The notes: generated from the sequence alone by a model not told the origin. Shown: positions 16,908-36,824, counted from the first letter of the stretch. The stretch: 39,825 bases of DNA from an uncultured Pelagibacteraceae bacterium (GCA_902588625.1 CACIPU010000009.1:1-39825), one strand, 5' to 3'. A program made the numbers and translations.

Positions 16908-16923
16908 AAGAAAGGAAATAATA

Positions 16924-17328
16924 ATGTCAAAAAAACCTCAATTATATAAATTTAAAGATATAGAAAATAGGTTACATACATTAGAGCCAGGAAAAAGTTA
17001 TATTAAGCCATTCGTAACTAGTAAAGTTAGTAATACCATGTGCGGAGGTTTAAATTTTTTAAATAAAGTTTCTGTACCATGGGATTTGACCTGTGATGAG
17101 ATTATTTATTGTATGGAAGGAACTTTCCGTCTGACTTGTGATGGACAATCTTATATTTGTAATCCAGGAGATGTTCTTTACATTCCAAAAGATAATCATA
17201 TAGCCTACGAATGCGATGAAAAGTGTGTGATATTTTATGCAGCTTATCCACATGATTGGAAACAAAAAGCAGGTATAACTTTTGTTCCAGGAATTGATCC
17301 TGAAGATATGCCTCCAGTGGAAAAATAG
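16924..17328 (+). CDS. Cupin-domain protein, EutQ-like
   Basis: This 134-residue protein is a single cupin barrel. The conserved strands are visible in DEIIYCMEGTFRLTCDGQS and NPGDVLYIPKDNHIAYEC, with the usual Gly-Asp turn. Of the common metal-binding residues only part is present, since the first motif lacks the HxH pair, so catalysis is doubtful. It resembles ethanolamine-utilisation EutQ-type cupins. GAAAGG lies upstream. It lies between the glyoxalase-fold gene and the glutamine synthetase-like gene (2-base gap), so it likely acts on, or senses, a compound in the same pathway. Confidence 0.75.
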   Translation: MSKKPQLYKFKDIENRLHTLEPGKSYIKPFVTSKVSNTMCGGLNFLNKVSVPWDLTCDEIIYCMEGTFRLTCDGQSYICNPGDVLYIPKDNHIAYECDEKCVIFYAAYPHDWKQKAGITFVPGIDPEDMPPVEK

Positions 17329-17330
17329 TT

Positions 17331-18758
17331 ATGTCTAAAAATAATAAAATTTATTATGAATCTTTTGAAGAAGCGATAGAACGTAACAGAAAAAAAATAC
17401 CTGAGGTTCACAAAAAATTAAAAAGTGCTGGAGTAAAATATGTTTTATCAAGCTGGATAGATCTCCATGGAATACCAAAGACTAAACCAGTTCCGATGAG
17501 TGACTTTGAACCTTTATGTTTGGGTAAGGGACCGCAGTTTGCTGTTCATTCTATTTCCTTTGTTCCAGAACTTACTCCTGCAGATTCAGATCAAATAATG
17601 TTACCAGACTTAAATTCTGTTTATATTTGTCCATGGGATAAATCTACGGCTATTATATTTGCTGATCTTTTTTGGGAAGGTAAACCATATAATGTTTGTC
17701 CAAGGCAAGCACTAAAACGTGCAATGCAAAAAGTACAAGATGCTGGTTACAAAGGTATGTGTGGTATTGAGCCTGAATTTATTGCTATGAAATATGATGA
17801 AGATGGAAAACCAATCAAAGCTATTGATAGCGATCCTATTAAAGGAATAAGACCAAGGAGACAAGCTTTTGGTTATGACGTTGAACACTCTTTAGACTCA
17901 ATGCATTTTTTTAAAGAGTTAATAGATATACTTGAAGATCTTGGCTGGAATTTACATGATGTTGTTGCAGAAGGAGCTTATTCACAATTTGAATTAGATT
18001 TTCATTATACAAATCTTTTAGAAATGGCTGATAGATTAGTTTTTCTTAGAATACTTTTAAAAGAAGTTGCTAAGAAAAATAATATGTTCATTACTTTTAT
18101 GCCAAAACCTACGATAGGGGATTGGAGATCAGGAGCACATATAAATTTTTCTATGGAAGACATTAATAAACCTGGAAAAAATATTTTTACTGATGGAAAA
18201 TCTTGGTCCAAAGAATCCCAGCATGCTGTAGGTGGATTAATGAAACATGCAGAAGCTTTAACTGCCATTACATGTTCGACAGTCAATTCGTATAATGGAT
18301 TAGTTCCAAGAGTGGGTGGATTTGAAGGTGGTACAGTGACTTGGGCTCCTACTAATATTACTTATGGTCATAACAATCGATCAGCACAATTCCGTTTACC
18401 ACAAAATAGATATTGTATAGAAAATAGGGCGGCAGACATGACTATGAATGTTTATCTAGCTCTAGCTATGACTTGTTCAGCAGCATTAGAAGGAATTAAA
18501 AATAAGATTGACCCAGGCAAACCAACTGATCGTGACTTATATCAAATGACAGAAGACGAGTTTAAAAAATTAGGAATTAGAAGACTTCCTAAAAATTTAC
18601 TACAAGCTATTGAGGCTCTTAAAGTTGATAAACTAGCAGAAGAAGTTCTAGGATCTGCCATGAAAAAGTCGTTCCTTTCTTACAAAAATGATGAATGGGA
18701 GCGTTATCACCAAGCCGTTACAGATTGGGAAGTGAAAGAATATCTTAGATTGTATTAA
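17331..18758 (+). CDS. Glutamine synthetase family ligase, GlnT/gamma-glutamylamide synthetase-like
   Basis: This 475-residue protein joins glutamate to ammonia or a primary amine using ATP, judging by its family. Glutamine synthetase motifs are present: GIEPEF (Glu147 and Glu149, metal ligands), EGAYSQFELDF (Glu221), SGAHINFSM (His270), NSYNGLVPR and ENRAADMTMNVYLAL. The N-terminal SWIDLHGIPKTKPVP matches the GlnT (type III) branch rather than housekeeping GlnA. That branch includes gamma-glutamylmethylamide, gamma-glutamylanilide and gamma-glutamylisopropylamide synthetases. Its place behind a Rieske oxygenase recalls aniline and alkylamine degradation, where amines are first glutamylated. 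The actual amine is unknown. Confidence 0.87.
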   Translation: MSKNNKIYYESFEEAIERNRKKIPEVHKKLKSAGVKYVLSSWIDLHGIPKTKPVPMSDFEPLCLGKGPQFAVHSISFVPELTPADSDQIMLPDLNSVYICPWDKSTAIIFADLFWEGKPYNVCPRQALKRAMQKVQDAGYKGMCGIEPEFIAMKYDEDGKPIKAIDSDPIKGIRPRRQAFGYDVEHSLDSMHFFKELIDILEDLGWNLHDVVAEGAYSQFELDFHYTNLLEMADRLVFLRILLKEVAKKNNMFITFMPKPTIGDWRSGAHINFSMEDINKPGKNIFTDGKSWSKESQHAVGGLMKHAEALTAITCSTVNSYNGLVPRVGGFEGGTVTWAPTNITYGHNNRSAQFRLPQNRYCIENRAADMTMNVYLALAMTCSAALEGIKNKIDPGKPTDRDLYQMTEDEFKKLGIRRLPKNLLQAIEALKVDKLAEEVLGSAMKKSFLSYKNDEWERYHQAVTDWEVKEYLRLY

Positions 18759-19771
18759 TGAAAGATTACGAGACTTTTGATTTAGGAGATATAAAACTCC
18801 TTTCAGGAAAAATTTTAAAATCTGGAAAAATTACTTACAAAACTTACGGAACTTTAAATAAAAACTTTGATAATGTTATAGTTTTGCCTACTTTTTATAC
18901 TGGTAGTCATAAAAGAAACGAAGGTTTTTTTGGCCCAGGTAGAGCTATAGACCCTAATAAATATTTTATTGTTTCCATCAATATGTTTGGAAACGGTTTA
19001 TCATCATCACCAAGTAATAGCTCAAACCAACAAGATGGGCCTCGTTTTCCTGACATAACATTATGGGATAATATATATTGCCAACACAAATTATTAATTG
19101 AAAAATTAAAAATAAAAAAAATAGCTCTAGTGACAGGCTGGTCAATGGCTGGTTGCCAAGCTTATCAATGGGCTGCACAATTTCCTAATATGGTTAAATC
19201 TATTCTACCATTTTGTGCTTCTGCAAAAACATCCTTACACAATCATGTTTTTTTAGAAGGAGTTAAGGCTGCACTAGTTGCAGATAAAAATTGGGACAAT
19301 GGAGAATATAAGTCACCTCCCATTGCAGGTCTAAAAGCATTCGGTAGAGTTTATGCTGGTTGGGCTTTTTCGCAGGATTTTTTTAGAGAAGAACTTTTTA
19401 AAAAATTAGGTTTTCAAACAGCTGAAGAATTACTTAAGGATTGGGAAGATGATCATGCTAAAAATTGGGATGCCAATAATTTACTAACCAAACTTAAAAC
19501 ATGGCAACTAGCAGATATTAGTTTTGGACCTATTTATAATAAAGATTTTAAAAAGGCATTAAAATCAATCAAAGCTCGTACAATTTTAATGCCTTGTAAT
19601 CAAGATTTGTATTTTAGAACTAAGGATAATGAATTTGAAGCAAAATATATTCCAAATTCAGTTTTAAAACCTATAGATTCTCCCTATGGCCATTGTGCAG
19701 CCAATCCGGGAAATGATAAAAATTTTGAACTTCAATTAGATAAAAATATTAGTGGATTATTAAATGAATAA
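18758..19771 (+). CDS. MetX-fold alpha/beta hydrolase or acyltransferase
   Basis: The 337-residue protein has the homoserine O-acetyltransferase (MetX) fold. The nucleophile elbow is TGWSMAGCQAYQW with Ser129, and the other triad members appear in CNQDLYF (Asp283) and YGHCAAN (His312). The N-terminal strand VLPTFYTGSHKRNEGFFGPG is typical of this family. True MetX has GGSMGGMQ at the nucleophile, so GWSMAG points to a paralogue that may be a hydrolase of an ester, amide or thioester. Its ATG shares a base with the stop codon of the glutamine synthetase-like gene, so it is translationally coupled. Confidence 0.8.
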   Translation: MKDYETFDLGDIKLLSGKILKSGKITYKTYGTLNKNFDNVIVLPTFYTGSHKRNEGFFGPGRAIDPNKYFIVSINMFGNGLSSSPSNSSNQQDGPRFPDITLWDNIYCQHKLLIEKLKIKKIALVTGWSMAGCQAYQWAAQFPNMVKSILPFCASAKTSLHNHVFLEGVKAALVADKNWDNGEYKSPPIAGLKAFGRVYAGWAFSQDFFREELFKKLGFQTAEELLKDWEDDHAKNWDANNLLTKLKTWQLADISFGPIYNKDFKKALKSIKARTILMPCNQDLYFRTKDNEFEAKYIPNSVLKPIDSPYGHCAANPGNDKNFELQLDKNISGLLNE

Positions 19772-22399: not shown

Positions 22400-23590
22400 T
22401 TATCTTTGTGTTTTAGTCTTAAATTTACCGCCTTTAACTTCTTTCTCTAAGAAAGAACCAAAAGCTTCTCCAACGTCTGTAAAGTTGACACCAGTTGCTC
22501 CTTCGTAATCAACTGCTTTTCCTTTAGCTAAAAGGTCTAAACCTTTTTTTAATTGGCCAGGGTAAATTTTTGTTCCTGGGCCATTAGCTACAGCCATTAC
22601 ATTTTTAGCAATCGAACCACGATCAGCCGATCCACCAGCTTGCATAGCAAGTACGATTAAAGCTGCTGCGTCGTAAGACTCACCAGTGTATGGACCAGAA
22701 GAGTCAATTCCACCTTTTTTTGCAACTTTAGTGAAAACTCCTGCTCCTTTTCCAGTTGAACCCGGTAAAGAACCAAACGATTTATTTAAACTTTTTCCAA
22801 AAGTATCTGTAAGAGAATCACCAATCATACCATCTGATAATATAAATGTATCAAAGGCACCAGAATCTATAGATCCTTGAATAATTCCTTTACCACCTTG
22901 GTCAAGATAACCAATCACTGCAACAGCATCTCCACCTGCAGAAGCTAAAACTGCAACTTCTGAGCTGTAGTCAGCTTTACCGTCTTCATGTGCTGCTACT
23001 GTTGTAACTTTAATACCATGAGCTTTAACTGCTGCTGCGTATACATCAGCTAAACCTTTACCATAGTCATTGTTAGTGTATGTGACTGCAACACTTTTAA
23101 TTCCTCTGTCTTTAGTAATGTCAGCAAGAATTTGACCACCACGAGCATCAGATGGAGCGGTTCTGAAAAAGAAACCTTTATCATCTAATGTAGTTAAACC
23201 TGGTGATGTTGCTGAAGGTGAAATCATAACTACACCTTTTGGTACTGCAACATTACTTGCAATTGCTCCAGTAACACCAGAACAATCTGCTCCCATAATT
23301 GCAGCTACTCCTTGTGAAATCAATCCTTCTGCAGCAGTTGTTGCGGCAGCTGAATCAACACATGTTGAGTCTGCTCTTAAAGGTTCAATTTTTTTTCCAC
23401 CAAGCAAAGAGCCTGAGTCAGAAGCTTCTTTAAAAGCTAATTCTGCCGAAGCCGCCATTGCTGGGGTTAGAGATTCAATAGGACCTGTAAATCCTAAAAT
23501 AATTCCCATTTTAATTGAGTGTCCATCTGCATATATGTTTGTTGTAAATGTCGAAACAAACATAAAAACAGCAATAAATAGTTTTTTCAT
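22400..23590 (-). CDS. livK: LivK-type periplasmic substrate-binding protein of an ABC transporter
   Basis: The 396-residue protein has a signal peptide of about 21 residues ending IYADG. The type I periplasmic binding fold of the branched-chain amino acid group follows: KMGIILGFTGPIESLTP, INGADCSG-like MGADCSGVTGA, and VMISPSATSPGLT. It captures a small amino acid, amide or related solute for a LivHMGF-type importer. No permease or ATPase gene adjoins it; the LivM fragment lies at the far left edge. It follows the catabolic operon ending in an aldehyde dehydrogenase on the same strand with a 101-base gap, and has its own GAGGG ribosome site, so it may feed that pathway. Confidence 0.93.
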   Translation of the reverse strand: MKKLFIAVFMFVSTFTTNIYADGHSIKMGIILGFTGPIESLTPAMAASAELAFKEASDSGSLLGGKKIEPLRADSTCVDSAAATTAAEGLISQGVAAIMGADCSGVTGAIASNVAVPKGVVMISPSATSPGLTTLDDKGFFFRTAPSDARGGQILADITKDRGIKSVAVTYTNNDYGKGLADVYAAAVKAHGIKVTTVAAHEDGKADYSSEVAVLASAGGDAVAVIGYLDQGGKGIIQGSIDSGAFDTFILSDGMIGDSLTDTFGKSLNKSFGSLPGSTGKGAGVFTKVAKKGGIDSSGPYTGESYDAAALIVLAMQAGGSADRGSIAKNVMAVANGPGTKIYPGQLKKGLDLLAKGKAVDYEGATGVNFTDVGEAFGSFLEKEVKGGKFKTKTQR

Positions 23591-23691
23591 ATTTTCCCTC
23601 TTAATAATATTATTAATAATATAAGAGTATTTACTGTTAAACTTTATTTTTCAATGGGAAAATTTCTTTTATTTATGAGGTTGATTCAGCC

Positions 23692-25173
23692 TTATCGCAT
23701 CGAAAAAGGATCATCAGTTGGTTTATCTGAAGTATGGAACCAAACCGTTTTAATTCTGGTATAATCCTTGATAGACTCTATTCCAGCTTCTTTTCCATAA
23801 CCGCTATCTTTTATACCTCCAAAAGGAGCAGATGGTGAAATTAAACGATAAGTATTAACAAAGGTAATTCCGGCGCGGATAGCTTTTGATACTCTAAGAC
23901 CTCTACCTAAATCTTTTGTATACACGCCTGAGGATAAACCATACTGGTTATCATTCATTTTTTTTATTACTTCATCTTCAGTATTAAATTTCATTACCGA
24001 CAGGACGGGACCAAAAAGTTCATTTTCTGCAGTTGGTAAATTATGATTTTCACATTCTATAATTGTCGGAGGAAAGTAGTAACCTTTATTTGAAAACGAA
24101 TGTCTTTTTCCTCCACATTTTATTTTTCCACCTTGTTCCATAGTAAGTTTAATATTTTTTTCTATTATTTCTAATTGTTTAAAATTACTTAATGGACCCA
24201 TTTCAGTTTCTGGATCCATTGGTGCTCCAATTTTAATTTTGTTTGCTCTTTTAGATAATTTATCCAAAAAACTATCATAAATACTATTTTGTATATAAAG
24301 CCTAGATCCGGCTATACAACTTTGTCCACTGGCACCAAAAATTCCAGCTGTTATTCCATTAATTGCATTTTCTTGATCTGCATCTTCAAATACTGCAACT
24401 GGACTTTTTCCACCAAGCTCTAAACTTACTTCAGATAAATTTTCTGCTGAATTTTTAATTATATGCCTCGCTGTATCTGGTCCGCCTGTAAATGCAATTT
24501 TTTCTACCAATTGGTGTGTGGTTAATGCCTTACCACATGGATTTGCTAATCCAGAAATTACATTTACAACTCCTTTAGGAATTCCAGTTTTTTCAATTAA
24601 CTTTACAAATTCAAACATTACCGCAGGGGCGAGCTCAGAAGATTTAATTACAACTGTATTACCCATTGCCAAGGCTGGCGCTAGCTTTGTTGCTGTTAAA
24701 AGCATTTGAGAATTCCAGGGGATAATTGCAGCAATTACACCGATTGGAATTCTAGTTGTTATTGCTTGCATGTTTGGTTTATCGATTGGCAAAACAGTTC
24801 CTTCAACTTTATCGGCTAAACCAGCATAATAATCATAGTACTCTGCTATATAGTTTGCTTGTTTCTTCGTTTCTCTAAATAATTTACCAGTATCAATAGT
24901 TTCAATTTTTCCTAAAAGCTCAGCGTTTGTTCTTAATTGATTGCCTATTTCTCTTAGGAATTTACCTCTTTCTCTTGGTAATAGTTTAGACCACTCTCCT
25001 TCAAAAGCTTTTTGTGCCGCTTTTACTGCTTTATCTACATCTTTGGCGCTTGCTTCAGGCACTCTAGCCCAAGGTTCATTATTTTCAGGATTTAAAGTTT
25101 CAAATGTTTTTTTACTTTCTGAGTCAACCCAATCACCGTCGATGTACATTTTATAATCTTTAAGCTTTGTCAT
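23692..25173 (-). CDS. NAD(P)-dependent aldehyde dehydrogenase
   Basis: This enzyme oxidises an aldehyde to a carboxylate. The 493-residue protein has the full ALDH pattern: IIPWNSQMLL (Asn154 of the active site), FTGGPDTARHI (NAD binding), LELGGKSP (general base Glu252) and GASGQSCIAGSRL (nucleophile Cys286). I start it at ATG 25173; a TTG three codons upstream is also in frame. It overlaps the alpha/beta hydrolase gene by 14 bases and is the last gene of the operon that starts with the flavin monooxygenase. The aldehyde is probably made by the upstream enzymes. Confidence 0.96.
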   Translation of the reverse strand: MTKLKDYKMYIDGDWVDSESKKTFETLNPENNEPWARVPEASAKDVDKAVKAAQKAFEGEWSKLLPRERGKFLREIGNQLRTNAELLGKIETIDTGKLFRETKKQANYIAEYYDYYAGLADKVEGTVLPIDKPNMQAITTRIPIGVIAAIIPWNSQMLLTATKLAPALAMGNTVVIKSSELAPAVMFEFVKLIEKTGIPKGVVNVISGLANPCGKALTTHQLVEKIAFTGGPDTARHIIKNSAENLSEVSLELGGKSPVAVFEDADQENAINGITAGIFGASGQSCIAGSRLYIQNSIYDSFLDKLSKRANKIKIGAPMDPETEMGPLSNFKQLEIIEKNIKLTMEQGGKIKCGGKRHSFSNKGYYFPPTIIECENHNLPTAENELFGPVLSVMKFNTEDEVIKKMNDNQYGLSSGVYTKDLGRGLRVSKAIRAGITFVNTYRLISPSAPFGGIKDSGYGKEAGIESIKDYTRIKTVWFHTSDKPTDDPFSMR

Positions 25174-25954
25174 TTTTATCAATAAACTTTTTGATTGTTG
25201 AATTAAAATCTTCTGAACACTCTATATTACAGAGATGTTTTCCTTTTTTTATAATTTTTAATTCACTTCCATGAATTAGTTTACTTATATTTTTACTCAT
25301 TTCAGGTTTTGATCCTATATCATTTTCACCTGTTAATATAAGAGAGTTAGCTGTAATTTGTTTTATCTTCATATCGTTATCTTCGTGATGAACGAATAGT
25401 TTATATATTTTCAACCACGTTTCATGTTTAGTATTTTCTAACATTTTATATATTTTTTTATATATTAACTCATTTTTACTAATAAATTCTTCGTTAAACC
25501 ATCTATATACAGCTCTTTTTTTTGTGATGTCTTTCTTAAGCTTCATCATTTCATATCTATTAAGTATCTGTCTTTTTTCATCTTCAGATCTTTTATATAC
25601 AGTTCCAAATATTGTTAGTGATCTTAGTCTATTGCTATGCAAAGACGCAAAATCTCTTGCAACAAGTGATCCTATTGAAAAACCAACTAAATGAAATTTA
25701 TCAATTTTTAAATAATTGACCAAACTCAATAATTGTTTAGTAAAATCTTTCATACTTATCTGTCTCTTTTTTATAGGAGTTTTTCCATGACCAATAAGGT
25801 CATAAACAATTGTATTATATTTTTTAAAAAACTCAATTTGGCGATCCCATATTCCATGAGTTAAACCAATTCCGTGAATAAATATTATAGGGGCTTTTTC
25901 GCTAGTTTTTTGAAATTTATAATAGGTTTCAAATGAATCTATAGTTTTTGTCAT
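25160..25954 (-). CDS. Alpha/beta hydrolase
   Basis: The 264-residue protein has the alpha/beta hydrolase fold: the oxyanion strand IFIHGIGLTHGIWDRQI, nucleophile elbow LVGFSIGSLVAR (Ser93), acid in LTGENDIGS and histidine in KKGKHLCNIE. It resembles enol-lactone and ester hydrolases of catabolic pathways. Its substrate is unknown. It overlaps the aldehyde dehydrogenase gene by 14 bases and follows the DUF1185 gene by eight bases, so it is firmly inside the operon. Confidence 0.87.
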   Translation of the reverse strand: MTKTIDSFETYYKFQKTSEKAPIIFIHGIGLTHGIWDRQIEFFKKYNTIVYDLIGHGKTPIKKRQISMKDFTKQLLSLVNYLKIDKFHLVGFSIGSLVARDFASLHSNRLRSLTIFGTVYKRSEDEKRQILNRYEMMKLKKDITKKRAVYRWFNEEFISKNELIYKKIYKMLENTKHETWLKIYKLFVHHEDNDMKIKQITANSLILTGENDIGSKPEMSKNISKLIHGSELKIIKKGKHLCNIECSEDFNSTIKKFIDKNDKA

Positions 25955-25962
25955 GAATAAAA

Positions 25963-26553
25963 CTATTTAGAGTTCTTGATACCCATTTCTTTCATATCTT
26001 GGTAGCGATCTCCTGTTCTGGCATGTGCCCTGCCACTTGAAGCTCCTCCTATAGCTATCACTATTTCATTATCAAAAGGTGCGTCATGAATAGTAAACTC
26101 ATGAGTTAGATAATAAGGCCTTAAACCAGAATCTGTTTTATGCATCATTGGAATAGATATTTTACATCCAGCAGGACCTCTTGTATTTGTGAAACTTAAA
26201 TAAGAAGTTCCACCCACAGCGTCTCTAAATTTGTTTCCAAACCTTAAAGTATGTATAAAAGCTGAAGCATGTTCAATTTCACCCGATAAACCTACAACAC
26301 CAGCTTTTCCATAGGCCAAAATTTTTTCTGGTGATCCCATTTCTTTAATTAATTCTGGTACCAAAACATCACCAAGTTTTGGAGCAAGATCTAATATTGT
26401 TGGTTTTAGATTTTCAACGAAACCTTTATCTGACCAAGGGTTTTTAATAACTGCAGCAACAGAAACTAATAAGACAGGCTTTTTAGCTACTTTACCACCT
26501 TCAATAAAAGTTTTATCGACAAATTTTGTAAATTTTCTTAAATTTAAATCCAT
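25963..26553 (-). CDS. DUF1185 'amino acid synthesis' family protein
   Basis: The 196-residue protein is recognised by its C-terminal GGASSGRAHARTGDRYQDM and by central features such as GKAGVVGLSGEIEHASAFIH and GPAGCKISIPMMHKTD. The family (Pfam 'amino acid synthesis', PF06684) is known mainly from structures and has no well-established reaction, despite its name. The conserved His, Arg and Asp residues near the C-terminus look like a binding or catalytic site. It starts 1 base... after the preceding TPP-enzyme stop codon region ends, so translation is coupled. Presence in this catabolic operon argues for a real enzymatic step. Confidence 0.8.
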   Translation of the reverse strand: MDLNLRKFTKFVDKTFIEGGKVAKKPVLLVSVAAVIKNPWSDKGFVENLKPTILDLAPKLGDVLVPELIKEMGSPEKILAYGKAGVVGLSGEIEHASAFIHTLRFGNKFRDAVGGTSYLSFTNTRGPAGCKISIPMMHKTDSGLRPYYLTHEFTIHDAPFDNEIVIAIGGASSGRAHARTGDRYQDMKEMGIKNSK

Positions 26554-28257
26554 TTATTTTTTTCTATGCTTAAAACTGTCTCTCCTAAAACTGTATAATG
26601 CTTTAGGATCTACCGCAACATCAATGACAGCGGGTTTATTACAGCTTATCGCAGCTTTAACTGCTTCGTTAATTTCAGAAACTCTATCAACTTTATAACC
26701 TTTGGCTCCATAAAGCGCAGCAACTTTGTCAAAAGGAGGACTACTTATATCTGCTCCAATAAATCTTTCTCCATAAAAATCTTTTTGGTAAGCTTTTTCC
26801 GCACCCCAGCTTTTATTATTCATAACAATTGTAATAGTATTTATTCCATAATCTACAGCAGTACTTAATTCAGAAATAGTCATTCCAAAACCTCCATCTC
26901 CCATTAAACTTACCACTGTCTTATTTGGACAAGCAACTTTTACACCTAATCCACATGCAAAAGAAAAACCTACTAAACCAAAATCTAGAGGTGTAAATAA
27001 AGAAGGAGGGTTATAATATTCTAGCGCGTCAGTTGCTTGAAGACATAAAGTGCCAGCGTCTAAAGTTATAGCAGAATTATTTGGTAATACATTTCTTAAT
27101 TGTTTGAAAAGACCTTTGGGTTGAATTGGAAATTTAGTTAAATTGTTTTCATTATCCCTATTATTTAAATAATTATTTCTTTCTTTTATGTAATTTTTTG
27201 TCCAATTGTTAGTTTCTGATATTAATTTTTGAGATTTTATTTCATTGTAAATTTGTTTAGTCACAGTAGATGCATCTGCACAAATTCCTACAGAAACAGG
27301 GAAATACCTACCAAGCATTTTTTTCTCTAATTCAATTTGAATTATTTTAGCTTTTTTATTTAAATTTTCATAAGTGTAAAAAGTTGAATTAAATCCTAGT
27401 CGAGTACCAATTGCTATTATTACATCAGCTTCTTTTGTAAGTTTTGAAGCAACAGGATTACCTCTTGGACCCATTTGGCCTGCATTAAGCTTATGGTTGA
27501 AGGGAATAGAGTCGCCATGTCCAGCCGCAGTTACTATTGGGACATTTATTAATTCTGCAAGTTTTGTCACGTCTTTATATTTTCCTGAATATTTTATACC
27601 ACCACCTGCGATAATAACGATTTTAGAAGCCTTACTTATAATTTTTACTGCTTTTTTAATATCATTTTTTTTACCTTTTATTGCGCTTTCTGTTTCATAG
27701 GATTTTTTATTTTGATTAATATTAAAAACAGCAGTATCCGACAAAATATTACGTGGTAAATTTAATTGTACGGGACCTCTTCTTGGCGACATAGCTAAGT
27801 TAAAAGCTTTACTGAATACCTCTGGGATTTTTTTTGTTTTATTTATAGTCCAGGTTTTTTTGGTTATAGGCTTAAACAATGACTGTTGATCTACTCCCTG
27901 AAAAGCGTCTTGCACTTTATCTTTGGTAGAAAAAGATCCAGCTATGGAAACAACTGGAGAAAAAGCTGCAGCCGCTTGAGCAATACCTGTTACAAGATTT
28001 GTAGCTCCAGGCCCATTCTGTCCAGCAAGAATTACTCCAGGTTTATTTGATGCCCGTGCATATCCATCTGCCATATGGGTGCCTGTCCTTTCATCTCTTA
28101 CTCCAATAAAATTAATTGTTTTTTCCTTATAAAGAGCATCAAACATCTCCATAGTGGCCGATCCTATTAAACCAAAAACATGCTTAGTTTTTTCTTTTTT
28201 AAGTGACAAAACCGCAGCCTGCCCACCAGAAATTTTTTGAGATTTTGTTTGGTTCAC
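26554..28257 (-). CDS. Thiamine diphosphate-dependent enzyme, acetolactate-synthase-like
   Basis: This 567-residue enzyme has the three-domain layout of acetolactate synthase, oxalyl-CoA decarboxylase and benzoylformate decarboxylase. The catalytic Glu56 lies in GVRDERTGTHMADGYAR, GQNGPGATNLVTGIAQA follows, and the ThDP-magnesium motif GDGGFGMTISELSTA ends in MNNKSWGAE. The reading frame is open to 28341, but I start it at GTG 28257, which overlaps the monooxygenase stop codon as GTGA; the extra upstream residues do not resemble the family. No regulatory small subunit accompanies it, so a catabolic decarboxylase or lyase is more likely than branched-chain amino acid synthesis. Confidence 0.88.
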   Translation of the reverse strand: MNQTKSQKISGGQAAVLSLKKEKTKHVFGLIGSATMEMFDALYKEKTINFIGVRDERTGTHMADGYARASNKPGVILAGQNGPGATNLVTGIAQAAAAFSPVVSIAGSFSTKDKVQDAFQGVDQQSLFKPITKKTWTINKTKKIPEVFSKAFNLAMSPRRGPVQLNLPRNILSDTAVFNINQNKKSYETESAIKGKKNDIKKAVKIISKASKIVIIAGGGIKYSGKYKDVTKLAELINVPIVTAAGHGDSIPFNHKLNAGQMGPRGNPVASKLTKEADVIIAIGTRLGFNSTFYTYENLNKKAKIIQIELEKKMLGRYFPVSVGICADASTVTKQIYNEIKSQKLISETNNWTKNYIKERNNYLNNRDNENNLTKFPIQPKGLFKQLRNVLPNNSAITLDAGTLCLQATDALEYYNPPSLFTPLDFGLVGFSFACGLGVKVACPNKTVVSLMGDGGFGMTISELSTAVDYGINTITIVMNNKSWGAEKAYQKDFYGERFIGADISSPPFDKVAALYGAKGYKVDRVSEINEAVKAAISCNKPAVIDVAVDPKALYSFRRDSFKHRKK

Positions 28258-29423
28258 GAAACTTTTTTGATATCTGTATTTAAACCTTTGTCGAAGTGGG
28301 GCATAACTTTTTCTGTAAATAATTTTATACTTTTCATACAATCTTCATGTTTAACTCCTGGAAAATTTGACCATACTTGAAGGTTTTGAAGATTTAACTC
28401 AGATTTTAATTCTTTTATCTTATCAACTACGTATTCAGGCGTTCCAAAAAGCATATTTCTTTTATGAAGAAAATCATAACTTAGTAAGTCTAGCTTGCCT
28501 TTAGTTACCGGCAACTCCTCACCTGGATCCATGTGATTTCCTAAACCTCTCCAATGACAGACCCATCTCATGTAATTAACCATATGCTCGCCAGCTTTTT
28601 CTTTTGCTTCTTCCATTGTATCAGCAACAAACATATCTCTCACTAAACTAATACCCTCTCCAAGTTTAACATTTCTTTTTTCAGCTTCTGATTTTGCATT
28701 TTTATATGCTTCAAACTTTACTTTTAAAGCTTTCACAGTAGGGATCCACATTATTACATTTATTCCATCTTTAGCAGCCTGCTCTATTGATCTCAATCCA
28801 TCAACTACTTGCCAAATAGGTGGAAATGGTTTTTGATATGGTTTAGGAACTACACTAATTTTTTTTATTACATTAGTTTTTAAATCCATAAATTCTTCAC
28901 TTGGTGGACTCATATCGTGTTGCCAAACAAAATTAGGAGATGGGTATGTATAAAATTCACCTTCATGATTAAAAAATTTTTCTTTCCAAGCTTTTTTTAA
29001 AACAGTTAATGTTTCTTGAAATAATCTATAATTTTTAGCCTGATCTTTTAAATCTGCTTCTTTATTTAAATTTATAGCTTCTCTTCCATAAATTCCCCTA
29101 CCTATACCAACATCAACCCTTCCTTTTGATAACTGGTCTAACATAGCAATATCTTCCGCTAGTCTTATTGGATTATGAAAAGTAATTACATTGCATGCTT
29201 GCCCAATTCTAATCTTTGAAGTTCTTGCTGCAGCATCTGTTCCCATCATTAAAGGATTTGTACAAGACTCCATCCCTTCGTGGTTAAAATGATGTTCGGT
29301 ATACCATATTGAGTTCCAATCATTTTTATCACAATAAGTTGTAATCTCTCTAGCTTCGTCTAGAAGCTGTGAGTATGGTTTTTTATTCCAGTTAGTGGTA
29401 TTACAAAAATATCCAAAGTTCAT
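28254..29423 (-). CDS. LLM-class flavin-dependent monooxygenase
   Basis: The 389-residue protein is a bacterial-luciferase-like oxidoreductase using FMNH2 or F420. Family features are the N-terminal strand MNFGYFCNTTNW, YTEHHFNHEGM, IGQACNVITFHNPIRLAEDIAMLDQ and GRVDVGIGRGIYGREA. Members insert oxygen into carbon-carbon, carbon-sulfur or carbon-nitrogen frameworks. AAGGAGA nine bases before the ATG is a strong ribosome site and marks it as the first gene of the five-gene operon running to the aldehyde dehydrogenase. No flavin reductase gene is present. Confidence 0.92.
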   Translation of the reverse strand: MNFGYFCNTTNWNKKPYSQLLDEAREITTYCDKNDWNSIWYTEHHFNHEGMESCTNPLMMGTDAAARTSKIRIGQACNVITFHNPIRLAEDIAMLDQLSKGRVDVGIGRGIYGREAINLNKEADLKDQAKNYRLFQETLTVLKKAWKEKFFNHEGEFYTYPSPNFVWQHDMSPPSEEFMDLKTNVIKKISVVPKPYQKPFPPIWQVVDGLRSIEQAAKDGINVIMWIPTVKALKVKFEAYKNAKSEAEKRNVKLGEGISLVRDMFVADTMEEAKEKAGEHMVNYMRWVCHWRGLGNHMDPGEELPVTKGKLDLLSYDFLHKRNMLFGTPEYVVDKIKELKSELNLQNLQVWSNFPGVKHEDCMKSIKLFTEKVMPHFDKGLNTDIKKVS

Positions 29424-29463
29424 CTGTATCTCCTTAAAAAAATTAAGTCGACCGATCCCACTT

Positions 29464-29546: not shown

Positions 29547-31283
29547 CTAATATTCATATTTTTTGACCAAATCTTCTAAAATTGGGCTAATTTTAACTAA
29601 ATGTGTTTTGTATTTTTCCCATCTTTGGGCGGCATGTTTATAAATTGGTTGCACAACCTGATAATAGCTTGGTGTTGATATTTTTTCTCTGTTAATGGCA
29701 GTTTTTCTATAATCTAGTAAAGATTTATCCCAACTCAAGTTAAGAAACCTAATAACATTTTTTATATTTTTCTCAAAATCATCAATTAAATCTTCGTACT
29801 TAATTTGTACGTAGTTAATTTTAAAAATAGAATTATATTGCTCCCAAAGTTCCATCGTTGTTTTGTATAAAATTGCTGCACTTTTAATATCCAAAAAATT
29901 TATCATGGCTTCGTTAAGCTTGAAATCTTGCATGTAACAACTCAGCACACAGTCTATGGGATGTCTTATAGCTAGAATAAACTTTGCATTAGGGAAAATT
30001 CTTAATATTTCACCGACATTAACAATATTCAAAGGAAGCTTATCTATATAAATATTTGATTTATTAAATTTTTTTATATTTTTATTAATTTCACTAAAGT
30101 ATTCTTTGCGCATTTCGCTTACTTCACTTTCACTAATATTTTTAAATGAACTCAAATTATTGTTTTTAATTAGGTTTAACATTTTTAAAACCATGGGTTT
30201 TTCTTCTATCACCTCAATTTTTGGATGAGATCTCAAAATTGTATCAAGAAGTGTGGTTCCAGATCTTGGAAAACCAATTAAAAACGTTGGACTTATATCA
30301 AATGATTTACAATCAATCTGATTCCATTGAATAATATTTTTCTTTGTAAAATAATTTTTTTTTATCTCGAGACTTTGTAAGTATTTTTTTCTATCAAAAT
30401 TTTTAGCTTCATGACTTTTGTTTGTTAATTCATTAGCTTTACGAAAATATTTAAAAGCTGAGTCATGTTCATTTATAAAATCATATGCTTTAGCCAAAAA
30501 AAAATTTTTTTTAATTTCAAACTCGGCTCCAAAATCATTTTTTTTAAGTATATTTATAGATTCTTTATATTTTTTTTTTCTAAATAAAAAAATTGAATAA
30601 TAAAAATCTAAAACTTTTTCTTTAGGAAATATTTTTTTAGATTGTCTTAATATTTTTTCATAATCACTAAGTTGGTTTGAATTTTCAAAAGCAGCTAAAA
30701 GATTTTTATAAGAAATAAAATTATTCGGATCTAATTTGAGGACCTTCTTATAATTATGTATAGCTTTATTAACTTCTCCAGTTTCAATTAAGATATTTCC
30801 GATATTATTATATGCTCTTAAATAATTCTTATCTATATCAATAATTTTTTCAAAACATTTTAATGCTTCATTACTCATATTTATATTTTTTAATAAAATT
30901 CCAAAATTATTTAACGCAGGAATATAGTTAGGATTAATTTTTAAAATTTTTTTATAATAATTGCTGGCCTCTTCATACATGGCAATTTCAGAGTAAATAT
31001 TCGCTAAATTATAAATAGCATTAATATAATTAGGGTTTATTTTTATTGCTTGCTTGAAAAATTTAATGGCTTCTTTTGTATTTTTTAATTCTTTATAAAT
31101 ATTTCCTAAATTGTTATATCCTTGAAGAAAATTTTTATCAAGATCAACTGTAATTTGAAAATTTTTTAATGCCAAATTATAGTTTTTTAATTTTATATAA
31201 ATATTTCCTAAATTAAAATAATTAATGATATTTTGCGGTTCAAGTTTTATTAGTTCTTCTATTTTTTTGATTTGATTAAACAT
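29547..31283 (-). CDS. TPR-repeat protein with C-terminal sulfotransferase domain
   Basis: The 578-residue protein has at least five 34-residue tetratricopeptide repeats in residues 20-200 (for example YNNLGNIYKELKNTKEAIKF). A helical linker follows, then a sulfotransferase domain. The PAPS 5'-phosphosulfate loop is LIGFPRSGTTLLD (residues 335-347), and the 3'-phosphate motif is AIRHPIDCVLSCY (Arg440, Ser448). It would move sulfate from PAPS to a protein or glycan bound by the repeats, as in tyrosyl-protein sulfotransferase-like TPR proteins. No signal peptide is seen, so it is likely cytoplasmic. It is monocistronic and divergent from the creatinase gene. Confidence 0.9.
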   Translation of the reverse strand: MFNQIKKIEELIKLEPQNIINYFNLGNIYIKLKNYNLALKNFQITVDLDKNFLQGYNNLGNIYKELKNTKEAIKFFKQAIKINPNYINAIYNLANIYSEIAMYEEASNYYKKILKINPNYIPALNNFGILLKNINMSNEALKCFEKIIDIDKNYLRAYNNIGNILIETGEVNKAIHNYKKVLKLDPNNFISYKNLLAAFENSNQLSDYEKILRQSKKIFPKEKVLDFYYSIFLFRKKKYKESINILKKNDFGAEFEIKKNFFLAKAYDFINEHDSAFKYFRKANELTNKSHEAKNFDRKKYLQSLEIKKNYFTKKNIIQWNQIDCKSFDISPTFLIGFPRSGTTLLDTILRSHPKIEVIEEKPMVLKMLNLIKNNNLSSFKNISESEVSEMRKEYFSEINKNIKKFNKSNIYIDKLPLNIVNVGEILRIFPNAKFILAIRHPIDCVLSCYMQDFKLNEAMINFLDIKSAAILYKTTMELWEQYNSIFKINYVQIKYEDLIDDFEKNIKNVIRFLNLSWDKSLLDYRKTAINREKISTPSYYQVVQPIYKHAAQRWEKYKTHLVKISPILEDLVKKYEY

Positions 31284-31345: not shown

Positions 31346-32551
31346 ATGAAAAGGCTAAATTTTTTTCACCTAAAGAATGGATCTAAGGCGCCACTTCCCT
31401 TTACGGATAATGAATATAAGAATAGATTAAATAGCCTAAGAGAAATAATAGATAAAAATAATCTCGACGCGGTCATTTTAACTTCTATGCAAAACATAGC
31501 TTACTATTCAGGATTTTTATATTGTTCTTTTGGAAGGCCTTACGCATGTGTTGTGACTTTGAAAAACAATGTAGTAGTCTCAGCAAATATTGATGCAAGC
31601 CAACCATGGAGACGATGCTATGGAGAAAATTTAATTTATACAGATTGGGAAAGAGACAACTATTTAAAAGCAATTGTTTCTATTTTAAAAAAAGTAAAAA
31701 GAGTAGGCATTGAAAATGATCATTTAACTCTAGAACGCTATAAAAATTTGAAAGATGCGTTAGATAGTCCAGAGTTAATTGATATTGCGCCCTCTGTGAT
31801 GTCAAAAAGGATGATTAAATCAAAAGAGGAGATTGCACTAATAACAAGTGGAGCAAAAATTGCTGACATTGGTGGAGAAGAGTTAGTAAAAAAAATTAAA
31901 GTTGGAATATCAGAAATTGACATTGCAATGGTTGGTAGAGACGCTATGGAGAAAGCCATAGTTAAATTTCATCCAAATTCAGAATTGAGAGATACGTGGG
32001 TTTGGTTTCAGTCAGGAATTAATACTGATGGTGCGCATAACCCAGTAACTAACAGAAAACTTAAGCATGGAGATATACTTTCTCTCAACACTTTTCCTAT
32101 GATTTCTGGATACTACACTGCTTTGGAAAGAACACTTTTTTTGGGAGAGGTAGATGATGCTTCTCTAAAAGCGTGGGAAGCAAATATAAAGGTTCATAAA
32201 AAAGGAATTGAACTTATTAAACCAGGAGCTAAGTGTTCTGAAATCACAGCAGAGCTAAATGAATTATTTGCTGAACTCGGATATCTCGAGTATCGTACTT
32301 TTGGTTATGGACATTCATTTGGAGTTTTAAGTCATTACTACGGTAGAGAAGGTAAGCTCGAACTAAGAGAAGATGTTGAAACAGTTTTAGAACCAAACAT
32401 GGTTGTTTCCATGGAACCTATGATTTTAATTCCAGAAGGTAAACCGGGGGCAGGAGGATATAGAGAGCACGATATACTTGTAATTAAGGAAAATGGCTCT
32501 GAAGATATTACAAAATTTCCTTTCGGACCAGAGCACAACATAATAAAATAG
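31346..32551 (+). CDS. Creatinase (creatine amidinohydrolase)
   Basis: Creatinase hydrolyses creatine to sarcosine and urea in the cytoplasm. The 401-residue protein has the M24 'pita-bread' fold without a metal site. Alignment from memory to Pseudomonas creatinase is close along the whole length: YCSFGRPYA, DASQPWRR, YTDWERDNY, FQSGINTDGAHNPVT, YYTALERTLFL, YRTFGYGHSFG and VSMEPM. Catalytic His231 (His232 in Pseudomonas), Glu261 and Glu357 are in place. Length equals the known enzyme. It heads a plus-strand run with two more small-molecule enzymes and an ABC importer. A related guanidino or amidino substrate is possible. Confidence 0.88.
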   Translation: MKRLNFFHLKNGSKAPLPFTDNEYKNRLNSLREIIDKNNLDAVILTSMQNIAYYSGFLYCSFGRPYACVVTLKNNVVVSANIDASQPWRRCYGENLIYTDWERDNYLKAIVSILKKVKRVGIENDHLTLERYKNLKDALDSPELIDIAPSVMSKRMIKSKEEIALITSGAKIADIGGEELVKKIKVGISEIDIAMVGRDAMEKAIVKFHPNSELRDTWVWFQSGINTDGAHNPVTNRKLKHGDILSLNTFPMISGYYTALERTLFLGEVDDASLKAWEANIKVHKKGIELIKPGAKCSEITAELNELFAELGYLEYRTFGYGHSFGVLSHYYGREGKLELREDVETVLEPNMVVSMEPMILIPEGKPGAGGYREHDILVIKENGSEDITKFPFGPEHNIIK

Positions 32552-32555
32552 TTTT

Positions 32556-33317
32556 ATGAGAATAAAATCACAATACGTAAAACCAGAATTTAAAAAAAAA
32601 TATAATCCTAAAGTTGGTTTGCTCGCATTGACTACTGACCTCACTATAGAAAAAGATTTTAATTCTGTATTCAGTCAGCTGCCGATAGATGTATTTGTAA
32701 ATAGAATTCATAATGAAAATCCATTAACAAAAGAAAATCTTTTAAAAATGCGTGATCAAATAAAAGGAATAACTGAAAAAATTTTGCCTGGTGAAAAAAT
32801 TAATACAGTAGCGTATGGATGTACATCAGGAACAATAGCTATTGGAGAAGATCAAGTTAAAGAAAAAATTCAATTAGCTAAACCAAATTGTTATGTTACA
32901 ACTCCAATTACTTCTGCTATTAAAGCTTTTAAATTATTGAATATACAAAAGATTGCTGTATTTACACCTTATCCAGAATCGGTAAACAAAACTATTTATG
33001 AATATTTTTCTAAAAAAAATATCGACGTAATATCTTTTGGCACTTTTAATTTAGATTCAGATTCAGATTTTGCTAATATTGATCCAAAATATTTATTTGA
33101 AACATTAACAAAATTAGACACAAGTGGAGCCGATGCACTTTTTGTATCATGCACTGCGCTACCTGCTTTAGAAATTCTTAATGAGGTTGAAAAAAAAATA
33201 AATAAACCAGTTTTTTCTAGTAATCAAACCTTAATTTGGGACACCATAAGATCTGTTGGTTACGATTCTCCGGTAGATGGATATGGAAAACTATTGAGAA
33301 ACAAAAATGCTTTTTGA
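32556..33317 (+). CDS. Asp/Glu racemase-fold protein, EutA/maleate isomerase-like
   Basis: The 253-residue protein belongs to the Asp/Glu/hydantoin racemase superfamily. Its two active-site cysteines are Cys89 in AYGCTSGTIAIG and Cys199 in VSCTALPALEIL. The nearest branches are maleate cis-trans isomerase, arylmalonate decarboxylase and EutA of ectoine-degradation clusters. EutA is found next to EutD in those clusters, and here too the next gene is EutD-like, which favours this reading. It starts four bases after the creatinase stop codon and overlaps the next gene by 11 bases. Reaction unknown. Confidence 0.8.
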   Translation: MRIKSQYVKPEFKKKYNPKVGLLALTTDLTIEKDFNSVFSQLPIDVFVNRIHNENPLTKENLLKMRDQIKGITEKILPGEKINTVAYGCTSGTIAIGEDQVKEKIQLAKPNCYVTTPITSAIKAFKLLNIQKIAVFTPYPESVNKTIYEYFSKKNIDVISFGTFNLDSDSDFANIDPKYLFETLTKLDTSGADALFVSCTALPALEILNEVEKKINKPVFSSNQTLIWDTIRSVGYDSPVDGYGKLLRNKNAF

Positions 33318-34476
33318 AAAAAAAGAATATAAAGTGAGATTAAAAAAAGTTAAAGAATCAATGTTAAAAAAAGGTATTGATTTATTAGTTTCACATGATC
33401 CTGCTAATATGAATTACTTAACAGGGTATGATGCATGGTCATTTTACTACGCTCAATGTGTTTTGGTTCATGTTAATGAAGATGAACCAATTTGCTTCCT
33501 TAGAGCGCAAGATGCTGGAGGAGGATATATTAAAACATACGTTCAACATAAAAATATCATTCCATACGATGAAAAATATATTCATACTTGGCCTCTTCAT
33601 CCCTATCAATATTTAGTAGAGATAATAAAAGATAGAAAGTGGGAAAAATCTAATATTGGTCTTGAAATGGACAGTCATTATTTTACAGCATTTTGTTACG
33701 AAACAATTAAAAAGGGATTGCCAAATGCAAAATTTAAAGATGCAGAACGTTTAGTAAATTGGGTAAGAGTTGTTAAATCGGATTCAGAAATAAAATTAAT
33801 GCAAGCTGCAGCACGAATAAGTGAAAAAGCGATGGAAACAGCTTTTAAGATTATTAGTCCTGGTGTTAGACAATGTGATGCTGTGGCAGATATTCAAAAA
33901 TCTTTATTTAATGGAACACCAGAATTTGGAGGAGATTACGCAAGTATTGCAACTTTACTTCCAACAGGAAAAGGTACTTCTGCTTCACACTTGACTGCTA
34001 CCGAAGATAAATTTGTTAAGGGAGAAGCTACTATTATTGAAATATCTGGCGTGCATAATAGATATCATTGTCCAATGGCGAGAACTGTACTTTTAGGAGA
34101 AAAAAACCAGAAAAAAATAGATACCATGAAAGCAACAAATGAAGCTTTGGATGCAGGAATTGCTGCAACTAAACCAGGAAATACTGCAGACGACGTAGCT
34201 CAGAAGTTTTGGAGTGTGTTGGATAAATATGGAATTAAAAAAGAGTCAAGAACGGGTTATTCCATAGGCATAGGCTATCCACCAGATTGGGGCGAACAAA
34301 CCCTAAATATATCAAAAGGTGATAAAACTGTTTTACAACCTAACGTTACTTTTCATATGATTGCCGTTATGCAATTTGGTGAATGGGGAGTAGAAGCTAG
34401 TGAATCCGTAAGAGTAACAAATGAAGGTTCTGAATTATTCTGTAATTTATCTAGAGAATTGCATATTAAAGGATAA
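33307..34476 (+). CDS. Ectoine hydrolase-like M24 family protein (EutD/DoeA-like)
   Basis: The 389-residue protein has the M24 pita-bread fold. The N-terminal domain has SHDPANMNYLTGYDAWSFY. The catalytic domain has His228 in GTSASHLTATED and EISGVHNRYHCPMARTVLLG, a segment characteristic of ectoine hydrolases. The Asp, His and Glu metal ligands of true aminopeptidases are not all present, so it is a non-metal C-N hydrolase like creatinase. EutD/DoeA opens the ectoine ring to N-acetyl-diaminobutyrate. Downstream ectoine genes (eutB, eutC, eutE/doeB) are absent, so another cyclic amidine is possible. Confidence 0.8.
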   Translation: MLFEKKEYKVRLKKVKESMLKKGIDLLVSHDPANMNYLTGYDAWSFYYAQCVLVHVNEDEPICFLRAQDAGGGYIKTYVQHKNIIPYDEKYIHTWPLHPYQYLVEIIKDRKWEKSNIGLEMDSHYFTAFCYETIKKGLPNAKFKDAERLVNWVRVVKSDSEIKLMQAAARISEKAMETAFKIISPGVRQCDAVADIQKSLFNGTPEFGGDYASIATLLPTGKGTSASHLTATEDKFVKGEATIIEISGVHNRYHCPMARTVLLGEKNQKKIDTMKATNEALDAGIAATKPGNTADDVAQKFWSVLDKYGIKKESRTGYSIGIGYPPDWGEQTLNISKGDKTVLQPNVTFHMIAVMQFGEWGVEASESVRVTNEGSELFCNLSRELHIKG

Positions 34477-34520
34477 AACCCTTGAAATAATTTTTAACAA
34501 ATGTTTAATATTTGCAACTT

Positions 34521-35612
34521 ATGACAACATCAGAAAGTTTTGTAAAATTTGATAAAGTAGATAAAAGCTATGACGGAGAAGTCTTAGTTGTTAAAGATCT
34601 TAATTTAGACATTCCAAAGGGTGAATTTCTTACTATGCTTGGACCTTCAGGCTCAGGAAAAACTACAACTTTAATGATGCTTGCAGGATTTGAAACACCT
34701 ACGGGTGGAGAAATATATTTAGATGGTGAAGCGATAAATAAAATTCCTCCTAACAAACGTGGAATTGGAATGGTTTTTCAAAACTATGCTTTGTTTCCGC
34801 ATATGACAGTAAATGAGAACCTTGCTTTTCCTCTTGAAGTAAGAAAATTAAATAAATCTGACATCCAAGATAAAGTAAAAAAAGCTTTGGGTATGGTAGA
34901 ATTAGGGGAATTTGGAAATCGTATGCCTCTGCAATTATCAGGAGGTCAACAACAACGTGTTGCTTTGGCAAGAGCATTAGTTTTTGAACCTAGATTAGTA
35001 TTGATGGATGAACCTTTGGGAGCACTTGATAAAAAACTTCGTGAACAAATGCAATATGAAATAAAGCATATCCATGAAAATATAGGAATAACAGTTGTTT
35101 ACGTAACTCATGATCAAAGCGAAGCTTTAACAATGTCAAATCGTATTGCGGTTTTCAATGACGGAAAAATTCAACAGATATCATCACCAGATATTTTATA
35201 TGAAAAACCTGAAAACGCATTCGTTGCAAATTTTATAGGAGAAAACAATCAACTTAAAGGAAAAGTAAAATCTATTAATGGAAAAAATTGTATTGTAACT
35301 ACTGACAAAGGTGACGAGATTACATCTTTAAAAATTAATGTTAACGCTGTAGGAGACTCTTCAACCGTATCTTTACGTCCTGAAAGAGTTGAAATTAATG
35401 CGTCAGAAGGTAATTTTGAAAACTCTTTTGAAGCTAAAGTAAAAGAATTAATTTATTTAGGAGATCATATTCGAACAAGAGTTGAAGTTTGTGGAAACGA
35501 CCAGTTTATTGTAAAAGTTCCCAATTCTTACAAAGGAGCTAACCTAAAAGAGGGTACATCTGTGAAACTTTCATGGAAGGCCAGCGATTCAAGGGCATTA
35601 GATCTAGGTTAA
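34521..35612 (+). CDS. potA: ABC transporter ATP-binding protein, polyamine (PotA) type
   Basis: This 363-residue ATPase powers the importer encoded downstream. It has Walker A GPSGSGKTT, the Q-loop in VFQNYALFPHM, signature LSGGQQQRVALARAL, Walker B LVLMDEPLGALD and the switch His in YVTHDQSEA. A TOBE regulatory domain occupies the last 120 or so residues. I start it at ATG 34521; a TTG three codons upstream is unlikely. Only 44 bases separate it from the EutD-like gene, so it is probably on the same transcript. Confidence 0.93.
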   Translation: MTTSESFVKFDKVDKSYDGEVLVVKDLNLDIPKGEFLTMLGPSGSGKTTTLMMLAGFETPTGGEIYLDGEAINKIPPNKRGIGMVFQNYALFPHMTVNENLAFPLEVRKLNKSDIQDKVKKALGMVELGEFGNRMPLQLSGGQQQRVALARALVFEPRLVLMDEPLGALDKKLREQMQYEIKHIHENIGITVVYVTHDQSEALTMSNRIAVFNDGKIQQISSPDILYEKPENAFVANFIGENNQLKGKVKSINGKNCIVTTDKGDEITSLKINVNAVGDSSTVSLRPERVEINASEGNFENSFEAKVKELIYLGDHIRTRVEVCGNDQFIVKVPNSYKGANLKEGTSVKLSWKASDSRALDLG

Positions 35613-35648
35613 TTTCTCATTTTTTTATTTTACAGCACATTCTCAATA

Positions 35649-35677
35649 TGTTTAAATCCCTGACTTATACGTATAAT
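35649..35677 (+). promoter_or_regulatory. Candidate promoter of the binding-protein gene
   Basis: A consensus -10 element TATAAT (35672-35677) lies 21 bases before the ATG of the binding-protein gene. TGTTTA (35649-35654) is placed 17 bases upstream as a weak -35. GAGGG gives a good ribosome site before the ATG. An extra promoter here would raise binding-protein expression over the rest of the operon. Confidence 0.4.
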
Positions 35678-35698
35678 TAATCAACAAAGAGGGAAAAT

Positions 35699-36760
35699 AT
35701 GTTAAAATTAATTAAAGCTACTTTCCTTGGATTGATCGCGATGGCATTTACTGCATCTTCATATGCAGACATCACTTTCGTTTCTTGGGGTGGAGCTTAT
35801 ACAGCAAGTCAACAAAAGGCTTACGTAGATACTTGGAGCAAAGGTTCTGGAGTTACTGTTGAAAATTACAATGGTGGTCTTGGAGAAATCAAAGCTCAAG
35901 TAGAAGCAGGAAATGTAACTTGGGATGTGGTAGACGTACTTCCAGACCAAGCGATTACTGGTTGTGATGAAGGTTTATTTGCAAAAGTAGATCAAAGTTC
36001 ATTCATAAACGACATGGTTGTTCCGCCAGTATCTGATTGTGTAGTACCACAAATTTTTTGGGCTTACACAGCGTTTTATAGCAAAAGTGCTTTTCCAGGT
36101 AAGAAACCAAAAAATATTAAAGATTTCTTTAATGTTGAAAAGTTTCCTGGAAAAAGAGGAATACATACATGGGCAAACGCTTTAATCGAAATGGCACTAG
36201 TTGCTGACGGTGTTAAAGCTAAAAATGTATACAAAGTAATGAGTACTCCTGAAGGAATAGACAGAGCATTTGCAAAACTAGATACAATTAAAGATCACGT
36301 TGTATTCTGGTCAGCTGGTTCTAAACCACTTGAATTAGTATCAAGCGGTGAAGTTGTTATGGCATTAGCATACAACGGTAGAATTGGTGCTGCTGTTCTT
36401 TCTGAAGGTAAAGACTTCGAATACATTTGGGATGCTACAGTTCTTGAACAAGAATATCTTGTAGCAATTAAAGGTGGAAATGAGAAAGAAGCACTTGAGT
36501 TTATGGCTCACGCTTCAACTGCTCAAGCTTTAGCTGATCAAGCTAAATACATTCCATACGGCCCTATGAGAAAATCTAGTATCGACATTATCAAAAAAGG
36601 TGAACCTTGGTTCATAAAAGATGGTGGTAACATTGATATTATGCCTCATATGCCTACGGCTCCGAAAGTACTTAAGAGAGCTGTTATCGGTGATCCAGTT
36701 TGGTGGGCTGATAATGGTGCTGAAGTAAACGAAAGATTCGGCGCTTGGAAGGGTAACTAA
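35699..36760 (+). CDS. potD: ABC transporter periplasmic substrate-binding protein, polyamine (PotD/PotF) type
   Basis: The 353-residue protein has a signal peptide ending SSYAD at about residue 24. The periplasmic binding fold of the spermidine/putrescine group follows: ITFVSWGGAYTASQQKAY, TWDVVDVLPDQAI, and FWAYTAFYSKSAFPGKKPKN. It ends in WWADNGAEVNERF. It would capture a cationic or zwitterionic solute and deliver it to the PotBC-type permease. The ligand is not certain; by context creatine, ectoine-like compounds or polyamines are candidates. It is flanked by its own promoter and by a strong terminator. Confidence 0.9.
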   Translation: MLKLIKATFLGLIAMAFTASSYADITFVSWGGAYTASQQKAYVDTWSKGSGVTVENYNGGLGEIKAQVEAGNVTWDVVDVLPDQAITGCDEGLFAKVDQSSFINDMVVPPVSDCVVPQIFWAYTAFYSKSAFPGKKPKNIKDFFNVEKFPGKRGIHTWANALIEMALVADGVKAKNVYKVMSTPEGIDRAFAKLDTIKDHVVFWSAGSKPLELVSSGEVVMALAYNGRIGAAVLSEGKDFEYIWDATVLEQEYLVAIKGGNEKEALEFMAHASTAQALADQAKYIPYGPMRKSSIDIIKKGEPWFIKDGGNIDIMPHMPTAPKVLKRAVIGDPVWWADNGAEVNERFGAWKGN

Positions 36761-36776
36761 TAATTCGTAATGTTTA

Positions 36777-36808: not shown

Positions 36809-36824
36809 GTTTAGGGATAAAATT

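Follow-up and report, generated by a model that had tools for sequence, protein, structure and literature searches.

The window analysed here is a 39,825-nucleotide stretch of DNA of about 30% GC, taken from a genome of 0.99 Mb in 44 contigs that is 78% complete. Judged by sequence, its host is a bacterium of the SAR11 type, and the closest GTDB relatives of its LLM class flavin-dependent monooxygenase (hereafter LLM) are Pelagibacteraceae, Pelagibacterales or uncultured Alphaproteobacteria. Five intact open reading frames run head to tail on the minus strand, encoding the LLM, a thiamine diphosphate (ThDP)-dependent enzyme, a DUF1185 protein, an alpha/beta hydrolase and an aldehyde dehydrogenase (ALDH). 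These genes and the features around them are as follows:

31346-38965, plus strand: divergent unit, possibly linked, with M24 creatinase-like, EutA-like and DoeA-like genes and a spermidine/putrescine-type (Pot-type) ABC transporter
29430-29435, minus strand: AAGGAG, ribosome-binding-site-like, ahead of the LLM ATG (from sequence)
28254-29423, minus strand: LLM, first gene, class I clade, 389 aa (PF00296, 158 bits)
26554-28257, minus strand: ThDP-dependent enzyme, optional gene, 567 aa from GTG 28257 (PF02775/PF00205/PF02776, 112-127 bits)
25963-26553, minus strand: DUF1185 (PF06684, "amino acid synthesis family") protein of the cassette subfamily (210 bits)
25160-25954, minus strand: alpha/beta hydrolase, PcaD/RutD-like, below those family cut-offs (PF00561, 74 bits; GFSIG nucleophile elbow)
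23692-25173, minus strand: ALDH, 493 aa from ATG 25173, cassette-ALDH family (PF00171, 541 bits; tree)
22400-23590, minus strand: LivK-type (Peripla_BP_6) binding protein, an orphan of its kind, probably the last gene (family match)
22384-22360, minus strand: strong terminator-like hairpin 3' of the LivK gene, 11 pairs, 7 of them G-C (terminator scan)

The original prediction of five genes of these families at these positions was confirmed, with matches far above the Pfam cut-offs, and its claim that they form one operon is supported by the junctions between them. The stop codon of the LLM gene is joined to the start of the ThDP gene in GTGA (28257-28254), and the hydrolase and ALDH genes overlap by 14 bases, with the ALDH start at ATG 25173; both were checked in the sequence. 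The order is not due to chance, since the synteny is kept in hundreds of relatives. Mechanically called reading frames are too long for two of the genes (595 aa for the ThDP enzyme and 496 aa for the ALDH), and the likely starts are 28257 and 25173. The shorter ThDP start is preferred because relatives read to the longer one run into stop codons. Active-site motifs are present in the hydrolase (GFSIG), the ALDH (GQSC) and the ThDP enzyme (RDERTGTHMADGYAR and GDG...NN, with the catalytic Glu). The transcription unit probably comprises six genes including LivK, which sits on the same strand 101 bases 3' of ALDH, with no terminator-like site between the two, and is followed by the strong hairpin. 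The number of promoter-like sites in this region does not exceed that in shuffled sequences, and none is claimed; no open reading frame for a GntR or LysR regulator lies within 22400-29423 or immediately adjoining it.

Several other genes share the window. The AT-rich gene that separates the LLM operon from the divergent M24/EutA unit (29547-31283, minus strand) encodes a protein with TPR and sulfotransferase parts. At 7068-11321 on the minus strand, a rhodopsin gene (PF01036) lies beside lycopene cyclase-, phytoene synthase- and amine oxidase-type genes; on these gene families it is a proteorhodopsin and carotenoid/retinal cluster, usual for SAR11. Genes for a Rieske ring-hydroxylating oxygenase, a glyoxalase, an EutQ/cupin protein, a glutamine-synthetase-like protein and a MetX-like hydrolase stand in a row at 15359-19771 on the plus strand. 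Glutamine-synthetase-like and MetX-like hydrolase genes directly adjoin the LLM operon in loci L012 and L015, and a glutamine-synthetase-like gene lies 3' of ALDH in five of the 80 GTDB loci described below.

SAR11 bacteria rank among the sea's most abundant. Among the 297 genomes sampled from the SAR11 order, 100 have an orthologue of the LLM, and an operon carried by about one third of the sample marks a diet of carbon and nitrogen that is both substantial and testable. In a 48-genome subset, PF06684 was present in 26 of 28 LLM-positive genomes versus none of 20 LLM-negative ones (Fisher p = 1.4e-11); the two positive genomes without it are 79-84% complete. Gene order was compared in 12 longer SAR11-order loci and in 80 GTDB loci picked by nearness to locus L064. 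The order LLM-(ThDP)-DUF1185-hydrolase-ALDH-(LivK) is kept across two SAR11-order families. All four genes of LLM, DUF1185, hydrolase and ALDH occur in 71 of the 80 GTDB loci and at least LLM-DUF1185 in 78, while LLM alone was seen in the remaining two; loci L235 and L244 stop at the LLM gene or just past it. LLM-DUF1185-hydrolase-ALDH is thus the conserved core. The five families of the original prediction do not form a single conserved set; the four-gene core recurs and the ThDP enzyme is missing in many carriers. The predicted link between the binding protein and the operon is supported, with LivK following ALDH, directly or one gene later, in 42 of the 80 loci.

The ThDP gene is the variable member of the operon. 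Its presence was judged in classifiable genomes by the room between the LLM and DUF1185 coordinates. Among near-complete Pelagibacteraceae carriers, 9 of 19 classifiable genomes have room for it and 10 do not; in the second SAR11-order family all six classifiable genomes have it, and it occurs in none of the 80 GTDB loci, which were chosen near L064. No ThDP orthologue was found elsewhere in the ThDP-minus genomes checked, where the paralogues reach at most about 33% identity. The adjacency of the ThDP enzyme and DUF1185 in relatives, on which the original prediction staked its reading, therefore stands in part: the two adjoin wherever the ThDP gene is present in SAR11 (locus L038 excepted), but the gene is often absent. 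In L038, a Pelagibacteraceae operon, a methyltransferase gene is inserted between them at 8868-9497. ThDP genes also lie within three class II cassettes of other genomes, with 61-64% identity to the enzyme in the window. In the ThDP tree the Pelagibacteraceae group with these three cassettes and not with the second SAR11-order family, with moderate support (80/80). By this evidence the ThDP enzyme travels with the module and not with one LLM type, and its occurrence with either type suggests a downstream role. The near-even split between ThDP-plus and ThDP-minus strains constitutes a natural experiment on that role. The nearest plasmid-borne ThDP enzymes (R. pomeroyi and Ruegeria THAF33; 40-41% identity) were set aside, as they occur in another context, beside an MttB-type methyltransferase and FAD oxidoreductases.

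About 38 further neighbourhoods from other proteobacteria carry DUF1185 of the cassette subfamily, in most cases accompanied by genes for a hydrolase, a flavin reductase, an LLM and an ALDH. Their proteins are 50-66% (DUF1185) and 46-68% (ALDH) identical to those of SAR11, with most cassette ALDHs at about 50-66%. The trio of DUF1185, hydrolase and ALDH, accompanied by flavin reductase and an LLM of another clade, occurs widely on plasmids of Rhizobium, Leisingera, Sinorhizobium and Acinetobacter. For instance, the arrangement GntR / DUF1185-hydrolase-flavin reductase-LLM-ALDH occurs in Leisingera methylohalidivorans, on Sinorhizobium meliloti pSymA and on Shinella and Chimaeribacter plasmids. 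An Acinetobacter venetianus plasmid carries DUF1185, hydrolase, flavin reductase, LLM and ALDH together, and Rhizobium and Mesorhizobium have a rearranged variant. In Parasedimentitalea marina (locus L168, 5850-7973; NZ_CP033221.1, 22199-24322) a fusion of a family III CoA transferase and a flavin reductase lies in the DUF1185 cassette. Relatedness did not lead to the cassette of Ruegeria pomeroyi, as the sampled Rhodobacteraceae-like genomes were all too distant.

The oxygenase is the gene in which the SAR11 operon departs from these cassettes. Its LLM is 26% identical to that of Leisingera and falls in a clade split deeply from that of the classic cassettes. The idea that SAR11 hides a classic, homarine-type LLM elsewhere was considered and rejected, as the search of 297 genomes of the order gave only weak matches in three (28-29% identity). 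All cassette ALDHs form one family in the ALDH tree, where the class I LLM cassettes (SAR11, L064, L065 and L174) are scattered among those of class II, with at least three changes on well-supported branches. Because the tree mixes the two, both LLM clades feed one module, which the class I clade has joined at least three times. One DUF1185/ALDH/hydrolase module has thus been repeatedly combined with two unrelated LLM clades, and DUF1185 therefore goes with the aldehyde-finishing half of the pathway, making its long-unknown function directly testable. An EutA-M24-LLM-DUF1185-hydrolase-ALDH contig was also met in a genome binned as Actinomycetota (L174; JABHCN010000048.1, SI037_bin109). Its LLM is 70% identical to that of an alphaproteobacterial-class genome (G505), pointing to either cross-phylum gene transfer or misbinning.

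We favour, with moderate confidence, the reading that the operon is a SAR11 variant of a catabolic module of the trigonelline/homarine type. The oxidation, cleavage and finishing of a carbon skeleton, as predicted from the gene families, is supported as the logic of the gene set. The periplasmic binding protein would supply a small N-heterocyclic betaine-like solute, whose ring the flavin-dependent LLM oxygenase may open, giving a product with an aldehyde and either an N-formyl or a lactone/ester-type group. From its family, the ALDH is expected to oxidise the aldehyde. A hydrolase is part of the trigonelline pathway, and by analogy with it the alpha/beta hydrolase would hydrolyse the formamide or lactone. 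DUF1185 may assist the ALDH step, much as TgnF, its relative in trigonelline degradation, is reported to stimulate TgnE-dependent succinic semialdehyde oxidation (PMC7913881). Where present, the ThDP enzyme could act downstream on a keto-acid or aldehyde product. We know of no step for a ThDP enzyme in trigonelline breakdown, a point that counts against this reading. Homarine is the best guess for the substrate and trigonelline the second. Homarine is abundant in seawater particles, at concentrations that a published correction lowers; TgnA and TgnB cleave the ring of trigonelline, a compound that supports growth of a marine Ruegeria. The argument that TgnAB would not accept homarine (Heal et al.) also weighs against the trigonelline/homarine reading.

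The low identity and deep separation of the SAR11 LLM mean that its substrate may differ, and the main rival builds on this. The class I LLM would then mark a non-pyridine solute, such as an osmolyte resembling ectoine or another amidine/amide, processed jointly with the M24, EutA, DoeA and ABC transporter genes, and DUF1185, ALDH and hydrolase would be a reused, generic aldehyde-finishing set. Besides the deep split between the LLM clades, this reading draws on EutA/DoeA homologues lying divergently beside the LLM in at least 32 of the 80 GTDB loci, on the co-directional genes of the distant L174, and on a related Pot-type ABC transporter found by the cassette in L145 and by class I LLMs in L065 and L066. 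However, these neighbours are missing from many SAR11 loci, and EutA and DoeA score under the ectoine equivalog cut-offs (205 versus 318 bits and 463 versus 613 bits), so that an ectoine function is itself putative. We also know of no requirement for an LLM in the ectoine route, and on balance we regard this reading as unlikely. A doubtful proposal of similar standing is that the second, independently recruited oxygenase clade, with the ThDP enzyme moved between cassettes in part of SAR11, reflects an undescribed pathway that acts on some other abundant dissolved compound, neither trigonelline nor homarine.

Two further pathways were suggested by individual enzymes. Among the NCBIfam models, sulfoacetaldehyde acetyltransferase fits the ThDP enzyme best (421 bits), recalling an organosulfonate route in which an SsuD-like LLM yields an aldehyde that an Xsc-like ThDP enzyme cleaves to acetyl phosphate. 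The enzyme nevertheless falls under both Xsc cut-offs (620 and 676; 403 versus 676 bits for TIGR03457) and is missing from a large fraction of operons that are the same in all else, the alkanesulfonate monooxygenase model gives the LLM 34 bits where the cut-off is 518, and no phosphotransacetylase gene was seen within the operon, which together make this route highly improbable. Resemblance of the hydrolase to the PcaD (123 bits) and RutD (67 bits) models could instead point to a pyrimidine or lactone pathway, with a RutA-like LLM and a RutD/PcaD-like hydrolase or an aromatic enol-lactone route, and the induction of a DUF1185 member, HcdD, in coumarin degradation also speaks for this reading. 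The hydrolase scores are far under the respective cut-offs (256 and 239), though, the RutA model is absent from the best 25 of 26 family matches of the LLM, and no other Rut or Pca genes were seen within the operon; we hold this pathway to be quite improbable.

The trigonelline/homarine reading can be set against systems already described. The SAR11 operon shares with the cassettes a cassette-subfamily DUF1185 next to an alpha/beta hydrolase, an ALDH of the cassette family (one tree clade) and a PF00296 LLM. The LLM lies outside the classic cassette clade, and there is no flavin reductase gene in the operon and no PF01613 match in the 78%-complete genome. The operon was not placed as a member of the Tgn/Hom cassettes, as it lacks three of their features: an LLM of the classic clade, a flavin reductase and a regulator. 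The tgn module of Acinetobacter baylyi (Perchat et al., 2018), with its composition taken from PMC7913881, PMC8269262 and general knowledge, is, as described there, alike in combining an LLM oxygenase (TgnA), a hydrolase, an ALDH and a DUF1185 member (TgnF). From tgn as so described, the operon in SAR11 stands apart by its single ALDH, its LivK protein and its optional ThDP gene, and by the lack of a flavin reductase gene.

DUF1185 had been thought to lack a biochemical context, a view already superseded by TgnF and HcdD. The latter is induced in 7-hydroxycoumarin degradation, and no stimulating effect of it was found (PMC7913881). Its operon, hcdDEFG of Pseudomonas mandelii, likewise places a DUF1185 member inside a catabolic operon, but pairs it with an alcohol dehydrogenase, a cupin and an FMN reductase (PMC7913881). 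The crystal structures of BB2672 (3BYQ) and SPO0826 (2QTP) represent the same Pfam family and fold (PMC2954203). They belong to another DUF1185 subfamily, without the HTLxFGN...GGTSYLxFTN segment; SPO0826 likewise lies beside branched-chain-type ABC transporter genes. A fold search with the DUF1185 protein matched 2QTP and 3BYQ only and gave no mechanistic clue, and an AlphaFold model of the LLM (pLDDT 48) was set aside.

A conserved homarine catabolism pathway of environmental bacteria has been published (Nat Microbiol, doi 10.1038/s41564-026-02313-7), known here through its citation in PMC13390433. Cassettes of the GntR / DUF1185-hydrolase-flavin reductase-LLM-ALDH type fit the reported hom gene count. 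Ferrer-Gonzalez et al. are said to have reported in 2026 a five-gene homarine operon with a regulator, homABCDER, and reportedly listed SAR11 among the carriers. In comparison with the operon so reported, the SAR11 operon has another LLM clade and an optional ThDP enzyme, and no flavin reductase or regulator. The published homarine work may already cover it: if SAR11 is among the hom carriers, the operon described here would be the likely candidate, because in the subset searched PF06684 was found only in LLM-positive genomes.
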